Below are positions 15,594 to 34,216 of a stretch of DNA of 64,000 nucleotides, in pieces; positions within the stretch are counted from its first letter, which is position 1, and each line of letters starts with the position of its first letter. Under the pieces are notes generated by a model, which did not search any database, was not told where the DNA came from, and saw nothing but the letters and a program-made list of their open reading frames with translations. The stretch comes from Thioalkalivibrio sulfidiphilus (GTDB taxonomy: Bacteria; Pseudomonadota; Gammaproteobacteria; Ectothiorhodospirales; Ectothiorhodospiraceae), in the NCBI RefSeq assembly GCF_000377945.1, contig NZ_KB898928.1:25383-89382 (forward strand), given 5' to 3'. The translations under genes were made by a program, and so were the position numbers.

Positions 15594-15620
15594 TGTTTGT
15601 CAGTTGTCAGTTGTCAGTTG
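15594..15620 (+). repeat. Heptamer array TCAGTTG/CAGTTGT
   Basis: Three and a half perfect 7-nt units (TGTTTGT, CAGTTGT, CAGTTGT, CAGTTG). Read on the minus strand it encodes the last residues (QLTTDN) and the stop codon of the preceding gene. No partner arm. Confidence 0.8.
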
Positions 15621-16007
15621 CAGGAGGGGAGGCTTGCGATCTTTCAGCCCGGGCGGGCAGTGCTCCGGATGCCGCCGGTACCAGTCCATGGCCGCGTCCA
15701 CGTAGGCGCGCAGGCCGGAGGTGACGTAGAAGCGCGCCTGGCTGGCGTCGTGGATGGGCGGGTTGCCGTTCTCGGCGATCACGGCCGCCTTGAGCAGGGC
15801 GAGGATGGTGGTGGCCGCCTGGCGTTGTTCCATGGCGGTGATGGCTTCCCAGGCGGCGGGCTCGAAGTACAGGCGCATCAGGTCCGGGCGCTGGCTGAGC
15901 AACAGGCGTGCCACCTGCTTGAGGGTGCGGTCGGCGCCTTCCCAGTCCTGGACCAGGCCGGAGCCGAGCAGGGTGCGCAGTTCCTCCCGGCCCTTGGCGG
16001 AGATCAT
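15600..16007 (-). CDS. Hypothetical protein, 135 aa
   Basis: The ATG at 16007 is preceded on the minus strand by TAGGGGTTTC, a ribosome site made partly from the end of the 186-bp palindromic element. The protein is helical and soluble (VQDWEGADRTLKQVARLLLSQRPDLM, MEQRQAATTILALLKAAV); I do not recognise its family. The C-terminal QLTTDN and stop come from the heptamer array, so the natural C-terminus has probably been replaced. Confidence 0.65.
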   Translation of the reverse strand: MISAKGREELRTLLGSGLVQDWEGADRTLKQVARLLLSQRPDLMRLYFEPAAWEAITAMEQRQAATTILALLKAAVIAENGNPPIHDASQARFYVTSGLRAYVDAAMDWYRRHPEHCPPGLKDRKPPLLQLTTDN

Positions 16008-16013
16008 GAAACC

Positions 16014-16199
16014 CCTAGCCCGCACATCTCGCCACCCTCCTACTGCGGCCGCCGATCCGCTCGCTGTGGCAGGGCGTACTCGCTCCAGCCAGCTTGACGT
16101 AGTGTCGGCTACGCCTGCGCCGTCTTGCGCTCCGTGCACCCTGCCACAGCGGCATCTCGACGCCCTCGCTACGGATGGTGGCGAGATGTGCGGGCTTGC
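16014..16199 (-). mobile_element. 186-bp palindromic element, copy A
   Basis: Begins CCTAGCCCGCACATCTCGCC and ends with its inverted complement (21 of 23 terminal bases match). An inner stem is formed by CTGTGGCAGGG (16064-16074) and CCCTGCCACAG (16139-16149), and a small hairpin by CGTAG...CTACG. A second copy of the same length lies at 33403-33588. Copy A sits between two minus-strand genes, contributing the last codons of the ATP-grasp gene and the ribosome site of the next gene. No target duplication or transposase was seen. Confidence 0.9.
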
Positions 16200-16975
16200 A
16201 GAGTCGGCCCCGGGGTCTCGCGACTCAGATACTGGTGGATGACGTCGGCAAGCTTCACGCCCAGGGGCTCCAGACCGCCGTTGCCGAACAGCACGTTGAA
16301 TTCCAGGATGAAGGGATGGCCGTCCACCAGGGCCACGTCGAAGCCGGCGTGGTCGATCTTCAGCCGGCGGGCGAGATCGGCCACCAGGCTCACCGCCTGG
16401 GGCGGCACGTCCTCGAAGATCAGTTCGCCGCCCCGGGCGATGTTGTTGTGGAAACCGCCCTGGGGGGCCTTGCGCCAGTAGGCGGCCACCACCTGGTCGC
16501 CCACCACCGTGACGCGCACGTCCCGCTCGATGGGCAGGCGTTCCTGGGCATACAGCACGTCGTGGCTCGCCGCCCAGTCGCGCAGGGCCTGGCGGTCCTC
16601 GATCAGCGCCACGCCGCGCCCCTCGGCGCTGCGCGGTTCCTTGAGCACCAGGGGGAAGCTGAAGGTGTCGAGGATCTCCTCCAGTGCCGCCGGCGTGGAG
16701 GGCAGGATCAGGGTCTCGGGCACGTGGGCGGGGGCGGCGGCCCACAGGGCGCGGGTCATGCGCACCTTGTCGTGGCCCAGGTGGTAGCTCTGGATGCTGG
16801 GGAACAGGCGCTTGTTGTAGACCCAGGCCAGCACGTCCACCTGCCAGGAGGCGGGGAACAGCAGCCAGTCGGCGGCCAGGATCTCGGCCTCGTGCCGGTA
16901 CATGAGTTCCGGCTTGAGATAGCGGGTGTCCGGGATGCCGAAGGAACGGTAGGCGTCGAAGGACAGCAGGCGCAT
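16169..16975 (-). CDS. ATP-grasp (RimK/GshB-like) ligase of unknown substrate
   Basis: 268 residues from the ATG at 16975. An earlier in-frame start would overlap bolA. The ATP-grasp core is clear: FPLVLKEPRSAEGRGVALI (ATP-binding lysine and loop), YAQERLPIERDVRVTVVGDQVV, and the metal-binding HAGFDVALVDGHPFILEFNVLFG. Such enzymes ligate carboxylates to amines or thiols. The final LQARTSRHHP lies within the 186-bp element, so the original C-terminus has been exchanged. bolA is directly upstream. Confidence 0.8.
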   Translation of the reverse strand: MRLLSFDAYRSFGIPDTRYLKPELMYRHEAEILAADWLLFPASWQVDVLAWVYNKRLFPSIQSYHLGHDKVRMTRALWAAAPAHVPETLILPSTPAALEEILDTFSFPLVLKEPRSAEGRGVALIEDRQALRDWAASHDVLYAQERLPIERDVRVTVVGDQVVAAYWRKAPQGGFHNNIARGGELIFEDVPPQAVSLVADLARRLKIDHAGFDVALVDGHPFILEFNVLFGNGGLEPLGVKLADVIHQYLSRETPGPTLQARTSRHHP

Positions 16976-17025
16976 GGGCGTGGAACGGACCGGGACAGGG
17001 GAGGGCGCCGGGGCGCCCGGTGTCA

Positions 17026-17268
17026 TCAGCCGTTGCTGGCCTCCCACTGGGCAGGGGTGAAGGGCTTGATGCTCAGGGCATGGATGGCGCCGCTGGCGAT
17101 CTCGCCGCCCACGGTGGCATAGACCCGCTGGTGGCGCTTGACCGGGTTCAGGCCTTCAAACTCGGCGCTGATCACCGTGGCCTCGAACTTGCCGTCGCCG
17201 CCGGTGACAGAGACCCGGGCGTCGGGCATGCGGCTGCTGATCAGTTGCTGGACCTGTTCGGGAGTCAT
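17026..17268 (-). CDS. BolA/IbaG family protein
   Basis: An 80-residue BolA-fold protein (MTPEQVQQLISSRMPDARVSV; LNPVKRHQRVYA; IHALSIKPFTPAQW). The short form matches IbaG/YrbA, which partners monothiol glutaredoxins in iron-sulfur trafficking. The conserved C-terminal histidine of IHAL is present. The gene starts a small minus-strand run with the ATP-grasp gene downstream. Confidence 0.88.
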   Translation of the reverse strand: MTPEQVQQLISSRMPDARVSVTGGDGKFEATVISAEFEGLNPVKRHQRVYATVGGEIASGAIHALSIKPFTPAQWEASNG

Positions 17269-31759: not shown

Positions 31760-34216
31760 ATGAGCGGAACCGGTGATCCAGGGAACGGGCCGCCGTCGCT
31801 GCCACTGCAGCCGGCGGCCTGGGACGTCTGGGACCGCAAGTACCGGCTGCGGGATGCCACCGGCCGTCCCCTGGAGGACACGCCCGCCGAGACCCTGGCC
31901 CGGGTCGCCCGGGCCCTGGCCGACGTGGAGGCCACCCCGGCGCTGCGCGAACACTGGCGCGAGCGCTTCCTCTGGGCCCTGAACCACGGCGCCCTGCCCG
32001 CCGGGCGCATCTTGGCCAATGCCGGTGCCCGGGATCACAAGCGCGGCACCTCCACCATCAACTGCACCGTCTCCGGCACGATCCACGACACCCTGGACGA
32101 CATCCTCGGCAAGCTGCGCGAGGCGGGCCTGACCCTGCAGAGCGGCGCGGGCATCGGCTACGAGTTCTCCACCCTGAGACCCAAGGGCGCCTGGGTGGCG
32201 GGCGCCGGGGCGCGCAGTTCCGGTCCGCTGTCCTTCATGGACGTCTACGACCAGATGTGCCGCACCATCGCCTCGGCCGGCGACCGGCGCGGCGCCCAGA
32301 TGGCCACCTTCCACATCGGCCACCCGGACGTGCTGGAGTTCATCGAGGCCAAGCGCGAGCCCGGGCGGCTGCGCCAGTTCAACCTCTCCCTGCTGGTCCC
32401 CGACGCCTTCATGGCGGCACTGGATGCGGGTGAAGACTGGCCTCTGGCCTTCCCCCTGAGCCCCGCCGAGCAGGCGCGCACCGGCGCGGATCTGGACGAT
32501 CCCAAACAGGTGGTCTGGCGCGAGTGGCCCATCACCGAGGGGTACCTCACCGATGACCACGGCCGCGTCGCCTGCCGGGTGCAGCAGTGGATGCCGGCGG
32601 TGGCGCTTTGGGAGCAGGTGATGCGCGCCACCTACGACCATGCCGAGCCCGGCGTGATCTTCATCGACCGGGTGAATGCCGAGAACAACAACGGCTTCTG
32701 CGAGGCCATCCGCGCGGCCAACCCCTGCGGTGAGCAAATGTTGCCCCCCTACGGCGCCTGCCTGCTGGGTTCCGTGGACCTGACCCGCTTTGTGCAGCAT
32801 CCCTTCACCGGCAAGGTGCGCTTCGATTGGGACACCTACCGGGAGGTGGTGGCGGTGTTCACCCGCATGCTGGACAACGTGGTGGAGATCCACGGCCTGC
32901 CCCTGGTGCAGCAGGCCGAGGCCCTGGAGCGCACCCGGCGCCACGGCATGGGTTTTCTCGGTCTGGGCTCGGCGCTTGCGTTGATGGGCATCCGCTACGG
33001 CAGTGAGGAGGCGGCGGCCTTCACCGCCCGGGCCGCCCGGGAACTGGCGCTCACCGGCTGGCGCACGGGCCTGGCACTGGCGAGGGAGAAGGGGCCGGCG
33101 CCGCTCATGGAGGAGCGCTTCACCGTCACCGAGCACCTGCTGGCCCGCTATCCCGCCCTTGCCGAGGACGGCATCCGGGTGGGCGACGTGCTGCCCGGCC
33201 GGGTGCTGCACGCCCGCTACAGCCCCTATATGCGCCGCATCGCGGGGCTCGATCCGGCCCTGGTGGCCGCGCTGGCCGAGGAGGGCGCCCGCTTCACCCA
33301 CCACAGCGCCATCGCCCCCACCGGCACCATTGCCCTGTCCTTCGGCAACAACGTCAGCAACGGCATCGAACCGAGCTTCGCCCATACCTACCTGCGCAAC
33401 ATCCTAGCCCGCATATCTCACCACCCTTCTACTGCGGCCGCCGATCTGCTCGCTGTGACGGGGCGTGCTCACTTCAGCCGGCTTGACGTAGTGTCGGCTA
33501 CGCCGGCGCCGTCTTCCGTTCCGCGCGCCCCGTCACAGCGGCATCTCGACGCCCTCGCTACGAACGGTGGTGAGATATGCGGGCTAGGCCGGGACGGCGC
33601 CACCCGGGACACGGTGCCCGTGACCGCCTACGAGCTGCTGGCCTGGCGCGCCCTCGTCGACCCGGACGCCGACCCGGAGGCGAAGCAGGGCCCCCACCGC
33701 CTGCCCGAGGCCTTCGTCACCGCCGGCGCCATCGCCCCCCGCGCCCACCTGGCCATCCAGGCCGCCGCCCAGCCCTGGATCGACGCGGCCATCTCCAAGA
33801 CCATCAACGTGCCCACCGACTGCCCCTTCGAGGACTTCCGCGACCTGTACCGGGAGGCCCATGCCCTGGGTCTCAAGGGCTGCACCACCTACCGTCTGAA
33901 CCCCGCCGCCTTCCAGGGCGTGCTGCTGCGCCCGGAGGACCTGGCCCACAGCCGCTACCGTTTCATCCTGCGTGACGGCCGCTGCCTGAGCATCAAAGGC
34001 GATCGCTGGGTGCGTTACGGCGAGCACCGCGAACTGGCCGCGAACCTCTACGGACAACTGCGCGAGCGGGGCATCCGGGAGACCGTGGGCGACCTGCCGT
34101 CGCTCACACCCGAATGCATCGATCCGCCCGACCCCATCGAGATCCGCGTGCCGGTGGTGGAGGTGGCCTGCGAGACGCCCCATGGGGTGTCGCCGGTGTG
34201 TCCGGTGTGTGAATGA
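31760..34216 (+). CDS. nrdJ: Adenosylcobalamin-dependent ribonucleotide reductase with in-frame 62-aa element insertion
   Basis: Makes deoxyribonucleotides using B12 rather than oxygen. The 818-residue protein has the class II layout: first active-site cysteine C102 (TINCTVSG), N321-P-C323-G-E325 with the thiyl cysteine and catalytic glutamate, APTGTIALSFGNNVSNGIEPSF, and a C-terminal redox pair C814-P-V-C817. Residues about 548-610 (ARISHHPSTAAADLL ... GGEICGLG) are the translation of a 186-bp palindromic element between the barrel end (AHTYLRNI) and the conserved SKTINVP region. Without it the protein would be about 756 residues. The frame is kept. Confidence 0.93.
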   Translation: MSGTGDPGNGPPSLPLQPAAWDVWDRKYRLRDATGRPLEDTPAETLARVARALADVEATPALREHWRERFLWALNHGALPAGRILANAGARDHKRGTSTINCTVSGTIHDTLDDILGKLREAGLTLQSGAGIGYEFSTLRPKGAWVAGAGARSSGPLSFMDVYDQMCRTIASAGDRRGAQMATFHIGHPDVLEFIEAKREPGRLRQFNLSLLVPDAFMAALDAGEDWPLAFPLSPAEQARTGADLDDPKQVVWREWPITEGYLTDDHGRVACRVQQWMPAVALWEQVMRATYDHAEPGVIFIDRVNAENNNGFCEAIRAANPCGEQMLPPYGACLLGSVDLTRFVQHPFTGKVRFDWDTYREVVAVFTRMLDNVVEIHGLPLVQQAEALERTRRHGMGFLGLGSALALMGIRYGSEEAAAFTARAARELALTGWRTGLALAREKGPAPLMEERFTVTEHLLARYPALAEDGIRVGDVLPGRVLHARYSPYMRRIAGLDPALVAALAEEGARFTHHSAIAPTGTIALSFGNNVSNGIEPSFAHTYLRNILARISHHPSTAAADLLAVTGRAHFSRLDVVSATPAPSSVPRAPSQRHLDALATNGGEICGLGRDGATRDTVPVTAYELLAWRALVDPDADPEAKQGPHRLPEAFVTAGAIAPRAHLAIQAAAQPWIDAAISKTINVPTDCPFEDFRDLYREAHALGLKGCTTYRLNPAAFQGVLLRPEDLAHSRYRFILRDGRCLSIKGDRWVRYGEHRELAANLYGQLRERGIRETVGDLPSLTPECIDPPDPIEIRVPVVEVACETPHGVSPVCPVCE
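33403..33588 (+). mobile_element. 186-bp palindromic element, copy B (inside nrdJ)
   Basis: Perfect 23-bp terminal inverted repeats (starting CCTAGCCCGCATATCTCACC). Inner stem CTGTGACGGGGCG (33453-33465) with CGCCCCGTCACAG (33526-33538). Same length as copy A and an exact multiple of three (62 codons) with no stop in the nrdJ frame. Differences from copy A in both stems are compensated on the opposite strand. Confidence 0.93.

Follow-up and report, generated by a model that had tools for sequence, protein, structure and literature searches.

A 176-bp palindromic element with IS1380-type ends in Thioalkalivibrio, probably a non-autonomous MITE, has in-frame copies in conserved genes

Rickettsia palindromic elements (RPEs) established that mobile palindromes can settle in working proteins, and the loss of harmful insertions with survival of readable ones has been described for them (PMC10969869). 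PiggyBac, with its bacterial relative IS1380 as outgroup, has ends starting with CCC and TTAA duplications, at times TTAG or CTAA (PMC10813416). Two copies, A and B, of a 176-bp imperfect palindrome were analyzed in a window of 64,000 bp from Thioalkalivibrio sulfidiphilus (contig NZ_KB898928.1, positions 25,383–89,382). With a probability of about 0.87 they are non-autonomous MITEs of IS1380 type, a reading that includes mobilization in trans, survival in frame and complementary arms. Coordinates of both copies and of the neighboring genes are listed in Table 1.

Table 1. Positions in the window of copies A and B, their parts and the adjoining genes.
Feature	Position	Strand	Remark
Left flanking tetranucleotide of copy A, CTAG	16015..16018	.	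Sequence; one CTTG at this site in the sister genome G004
Copy A, 176-bp element	16019..16194	+	Empty site in G004
Left terminal repeat of A, CCCGCACATCTCGCC	16019..16033	+	Positions 7 and 13 depart from the family end
Right terminal repeat of A	16180..16194	-	Same two changes on the opposite arm
Inner stem of A, left arm	16062..16079	+	
Inner stem of A, right arm	16134..16151	-	
Right flanking tetranucleotide of A, CTTG	16195..16198	.	Matches the empty site of G004
Left flanking tetranucleotide of copy B, CTAG	33404..33407	.	G004 has a single CTGG
Copy B, in frame within nrdJ	33408..33583	+	
Right flanking tetranucleotide of copy B, CTAG	33584..33587	.	Sequence
Class II (B12-dependent) ribonucleotide reductase gene (nrdJ), 818 aa, read through copy B	31760..34216	+	TIGR02504
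ORF resembling an ATP-grasp protein (by eye)	16169..17047	-	Last residues read from copy A
Downstream gene, split from its neighbor by copy A	15600..16007	-	

Copies, ends and the IS1380 link

Copies A and B are 88.5% identical. The source genome (3.05 Mb, a draft of 69 contigs) gave 44 element matches, a count that includes partial copies, copies at contig ends and self-matches of the palindrome on the other strand and corresponds to about 40 full or partial places. A control search with the pattern reversed gave 0 element matches. Copies were gathered by similarity, which covers full-length ones best. Most are 97–99% identical to the consensus, and A is an outlier at 89%. The element is present in all five searched genomes of the genus and in 0 of 42 other genomes of the order. 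A sample of 369 genomes of the class yielded 65 of the ends in one genome of another family (G309) and one or two in each of six others. A search of plasmid and viral collections for the element gave no match, and a search of the literature for the end sequence gave none.

The body of the element has a fixed length of 176 bp. The ends are 15-bp inverted repeats, CCCGCATATCTCACC, flanked as YTAR-CCCGCATATCTCACC. The flanking tetranucleotides of most copies are CTAG or TTAA on both sides, mostly CTAG. Some copies instead carry CTAA...CTAA or TTAG...TTAG in register, and because these flanks are asymmetric the repeat must be a direct 4-bp one. Empty sites were sought in G004, which is ~95–98% identical around the copies, over about a third of that genome plus direct hits. 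It is empty at A, at B and at several other copies; three copies (L005, L013 and L026) are filled in both genomes. Terminal inverted repeats, flanking target repeats and insertion polymorphism between relatives are thus all present, and MITE, one of the classes offered in the original prediction, is the right label for a short, multi-copy element with terminal inverted repeats and no transposase of its own.

Other elements share the 15-bp ends, at lengths of 36, 77, 134, 170–188, 206, 254 and up to 278 bp, and most of those of other length have interiors unrelated to the 176-bp family. The 36-bp elements are two ends back to back with TTAA on both sides (L248:661-696, L249:622-657). A second family of ~254 bp has the same ends and an unrelated interior (L066, L067, L069, L070, L074, L075 and L078); 16 copies of exactly 254 bp from two genomes were among those fetched.

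The ends connect the family to a transposase. In genome G088, CTAG-CCCGCATATCTCACC and its inverted partner bound 1,736 bp that hold a degenerate IS1380-family transposase in two pieces (NF033539, E = 1.7e-32 and 3.9e-7). Among 70 loci of close relatives of this transposase, drawn from many phyla and with enough flank, both ends carry the motif with matching flanks in 44, as against 0 of 70 shuffled controls, so the ends are common to elements that encode an IS1380 transposase. IS1380 is a DDE transposase family. An IS1380-type transposase from an element now absent in these assemblies would recognize both ends in trans and would shift the element by cut-and-paste. Positions 7 (T) and 13 (A) are invariant in 87 of 88 IS1380-type ends, and copy A departs from the two at each of its ends; it is thus probably immobile at present, as judged from its termini.

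No autonomous element with CCCGCATATCTCACC ends was found in the genus by profile search (PF13701). The source genome has only two halves of one IS1380 gene, and the four other members, including G004 as a single contig, gave no match. The IS1380 gene of the source genome was considered as the mobilizer and rejected; its ends, CCCAGATTGTCCATTA, differ from CCCGCATATCTCACC. With no matching transposase found in the genus, mobilization is something we infer. MITEs can outlive their autonomous partner, and the missing partner lowers the claim of present mobility, not that of origin.

The original prediction had also placed the copies near REP elements and looked to a RAYT-type Y1 enzyme. A REP/REPIN-like unit moved by a RAYT would fit a palindromic element in a genome with three Y1_Tnp genes, and the copies are, like REP/REPIN units, repeated palindromes. 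However, all three genes lack an element end within 1.5 kb, so none is flanked by the repeat, and the 15-bp terminal inverted repeats and 4-bp flanking repeats match the DDE family IS1380. REP identity and RAYT membership were accordingly dropped, and movement by a Y1 enzyme is extremely improbable.

In every clearly read case, except one side of A, the four bases beside an insert are not those of the empty site, and CTAG occurs at none of the empty sites whose tetranucleotide was read. CTAG may have been carried from the donor: the 4-nt overhang of the element would anneal to a near-matching target, and the tetranucleotide of the donor would persist at one flank or at both. This would mirror the mechanism of piggyBac, which is synthesis-free. 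Unrelated CTAG sites of the source genome are conserved in G004 in 11 of 25 cases, which weakens the evidence to about P = 0.02 for the seven CTAG cases, and donor carriage is considered possible but unlikely.

In-frame copies in genes and the surroundings of copy A

The element and one tetranucleotide add 180 bp (176 + 4), or 60 codons, and the consensus has only one stop-free frame, in which CTAG starts a codon. Insertion in codon phase 0 of CTAG and in the readable orientation would lengthen a protein by ~60 residues without truncation. Peptides predicted from the insert frame include ARISHHPSTAAADLLAVTGR. The combination of one open frame among six with a length that is a multiple of three is no rare coincidence, at a rough estimate of 10–20%.

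Nine clear gene insertions were found, with genes assigned by profile matches. The nrdJ product aligns to TIGR02504 (E = 9e-157) in one stretch across copy B, and the G004 ortholog has no insertion at that position. A second ribonucleotide reductase large subunit in the genome is uninterrupted, so the host gene of copy B need not be essential. The G004 nrdJ (L262) has an apparent intein between the parts of its barrel domain; the window gene has none. The rsmA/ksgA gene holds an in-frame copy with profile matches on both sides, and the genome has no second full copy of it. This rsmA with its insert (L017:146-1921) reads without a stop into 6-phosphogluconolactonase and may be fused to it. The source genome also has in-frame copies in uvrA, in a gene for a DsbH-like thioredoxin-domain protein and in a methyltransferase gene near the C-terminus. 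Those in other members of the genus are in dnaE2 (matches on both sides), pepN, a glycosyltransferase gene and an addB-like gene. The profile match lies on one side only in pepN, the glycosyltransferase, the addB-like gene, the DsbH-like protein and the methyltransferase. A tenth case, a TolC-like gene, was left out because it is interrupted before the recognized domain.

The readable orientation is seen in 9 of 9 of these insertions (P = 0.002), and a search for an insertion in unreadable orientation within a recognizable gene found none. Five candidates for such an insertion (L009, L014, L201, L202 and L229) were rejected; they have no domain on both sides and look like chance frames or intergenic copies. 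In the simplest view, harmful insertions would be lost, and in-frame insertions in readable orientation would survive in conserved genes. The orientation bias would also be expected if the element had been domesticated as a protein-coding cassette with a 60-residue insert useful to the host, but removal of damaging insertions gives the same bias. Purifying selection on the inserted frame was not detected: the frame is open in 50 of 52 copies, where 48.5 are expected (P = 0.30), and the synonymous share is 24%, against 31% under neutrality. Domestication is therefore very unlikely.

In G004, the TGA of the upstream gene overlaps the ATG of the next gene (read by eye), and in the source genome copy A sets these two minus-strand genes ~180 bp apart. 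Copy A probably affects the downstream gene. Where it joins the neighboring sequence (window 16005–16018), AGGGG comes to lie a few bases ahead of the downstream ATG and could be a new ribosome-binding site, absent from G004. A 7-bp tandem repeat (TCAGTTG-like) lies between genes at window 15597–15626, with near-identical stretches at dozens of places in genomes G001 and G002.

Matched changes in the two arms

The original prediction held that A and B differ in the terminal and inner stems and that each difference is matched on the opposite arm. The stems quoted for both copies are exact, and every quoted difference is so matched. Against the family consensus, A has 19 substitutions, 14 at paired and 5 at unpaired sites. 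Twelve of the 14 make up six complete Watson-Crick swaps (7/170, 13/164, 21/156, 51/126, 53/124 and 60/117), and the remaining 2 are one-sided. Random placement of the same number of substitutions gave a mean of 0.22 swaps and reached six in 0 of 20,000 runs. The paired changes had been taken as independent between A and B. Of the six swaps of A, 7/170 and 53/124 are private to it; 51/126, 60/117 and 21/156 also occur in copies from other genomes and are thus old subfamily differences.

The covariation test took the 46 pairs that the folds of the two strands share and an alignment of 49 copies, drawn from five genomes of a single genus and one distant genome. Thirteen stem pairs are changed on both arms, against 2.2 (sd 1.1) in shuffled alignments, in controls that remove relatedness only in part and with a structure drawn from the consensus of the tested sequences. 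The count was equaled in 0 of 500 shuffles, and slid partners give 0–2. Each of the 13 pairs is a position of its own, and the swaps mostly fall in different copies. At stem pairs, 97.6% of the cells of the alignment are paired. Unpaired stem changes at the neutral rate, which would have counted against a conserved structure, were looked for: paired sites carry 1.33 changes per site and unpaired sites 2.89, and complete swaps hold 60 of the 122 changes at paired sites. The claim of a conserved fold-back whose covariation exceeds chance is therefore upheld and extended from two copies to 49.

The further claim, selection on folding, keeps its basis in this covariation but is not proven by it. 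Arm-to-arm copying yields the same matches, and a transposase substrate is expected to have symmetrical ends. Selection acting on the ends or on the fold, arm-to-arm copying, or both would keep the arms complementary, and the choice between copying and fold selection as the source of the matched changes is near even.

Without any selection, template switching or palindrome conversion could transfer a mutation from one arm to the other. Young copies that are 4–5 substitutions off the consensus already carry a complete swap (L209, 10/167; L229, 8/169), and the private changes of A fall nearly all within swaps. Orthologous copies show 13 changes with no swap, hence no sign of slow compensation after insertion, a number too small to decide. 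Against copying, intermediates with only one arm changed exist for several swapped pairs (8/169, 13/164). One-sided changes in the stems are also biased toward those that remain G-U on the minus strand (20 against 5, P = 0.004), whereas unpaired control sites give 17 against 20, and copying gives no reason for this bias. Such copying is plausible, at a little under an even chance.

Selection could instead keep the fold, either as transcribed RNA or as single-strand DNA in transposition. The 13 pairs changed on both sides, the high share of paired cells and the slower change of paired sites are consistent with this, and G-U intermediates, skewed to the minus strand, would be tolerated under such selection. 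However, genes that hold a copy transcribe the plus strand, opposite to the strand of the skew, and DDE-type transposition requires short ends only, as the 36-bp ends-only elements illustrate. The element has no Rfam family match as a known structured RNA, and the covariation beyond chance that a structured RNA would have is also what an inverted repeat would show. Maintenance of the fold by selection is put forward tentatively, as a possibility with roughly one chance in three.

Meaning and comparison with described elements

The reading of A and B as IS1380-type MITEs places RPE-like behavior outside Rickettsiales; the related transposase family and the end sequence are identified through elements elsewhere, and a sister species provides the empty sites. 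It becomes testable how mobile inserts of 60 residues come to sit in conserved bacterial enzymes, the single-copy RsmA among them, and whether matched changes in a fold-back reflect selection or arm-to-arm copying. Covariation in inverted repeats is, as a caution, no proof of a functional RNA.

REP/REPIN units with RAYT differ in their association with a Y1 gene, which is missing here, where DDE-type ends and flanking repeats are found. IS1380-family insertion sequences (NF033539, PF13701) share 15-bp ends starting with CCC, the motif CCCGSATWTCTCACC and 4-bp YTAR flanks; the elements described here are 36 to 278 bp long and have no transposase, and no partner with these ends was found in the genus. 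ERIC, the enterobacterial RU elements and Coxiella QMITE are likewise short inverted-repeat elements that can fuse in frame with genes (PMC10969869, PMC2759123, PMC5896051), in other hosts and with a likeness by description. Rickettsia palindromic elements are also palindromes of similar size found in frame in unrelated conserved genes (PMC10969869), a likeness by description, and in-frame insertion in unrelated conserved genes was found here as well. Unlike RPEs, the present elements have named ends, flanking repeats and a related transposase family, lie outside Rickettsiales and include many copies that are not in genes.
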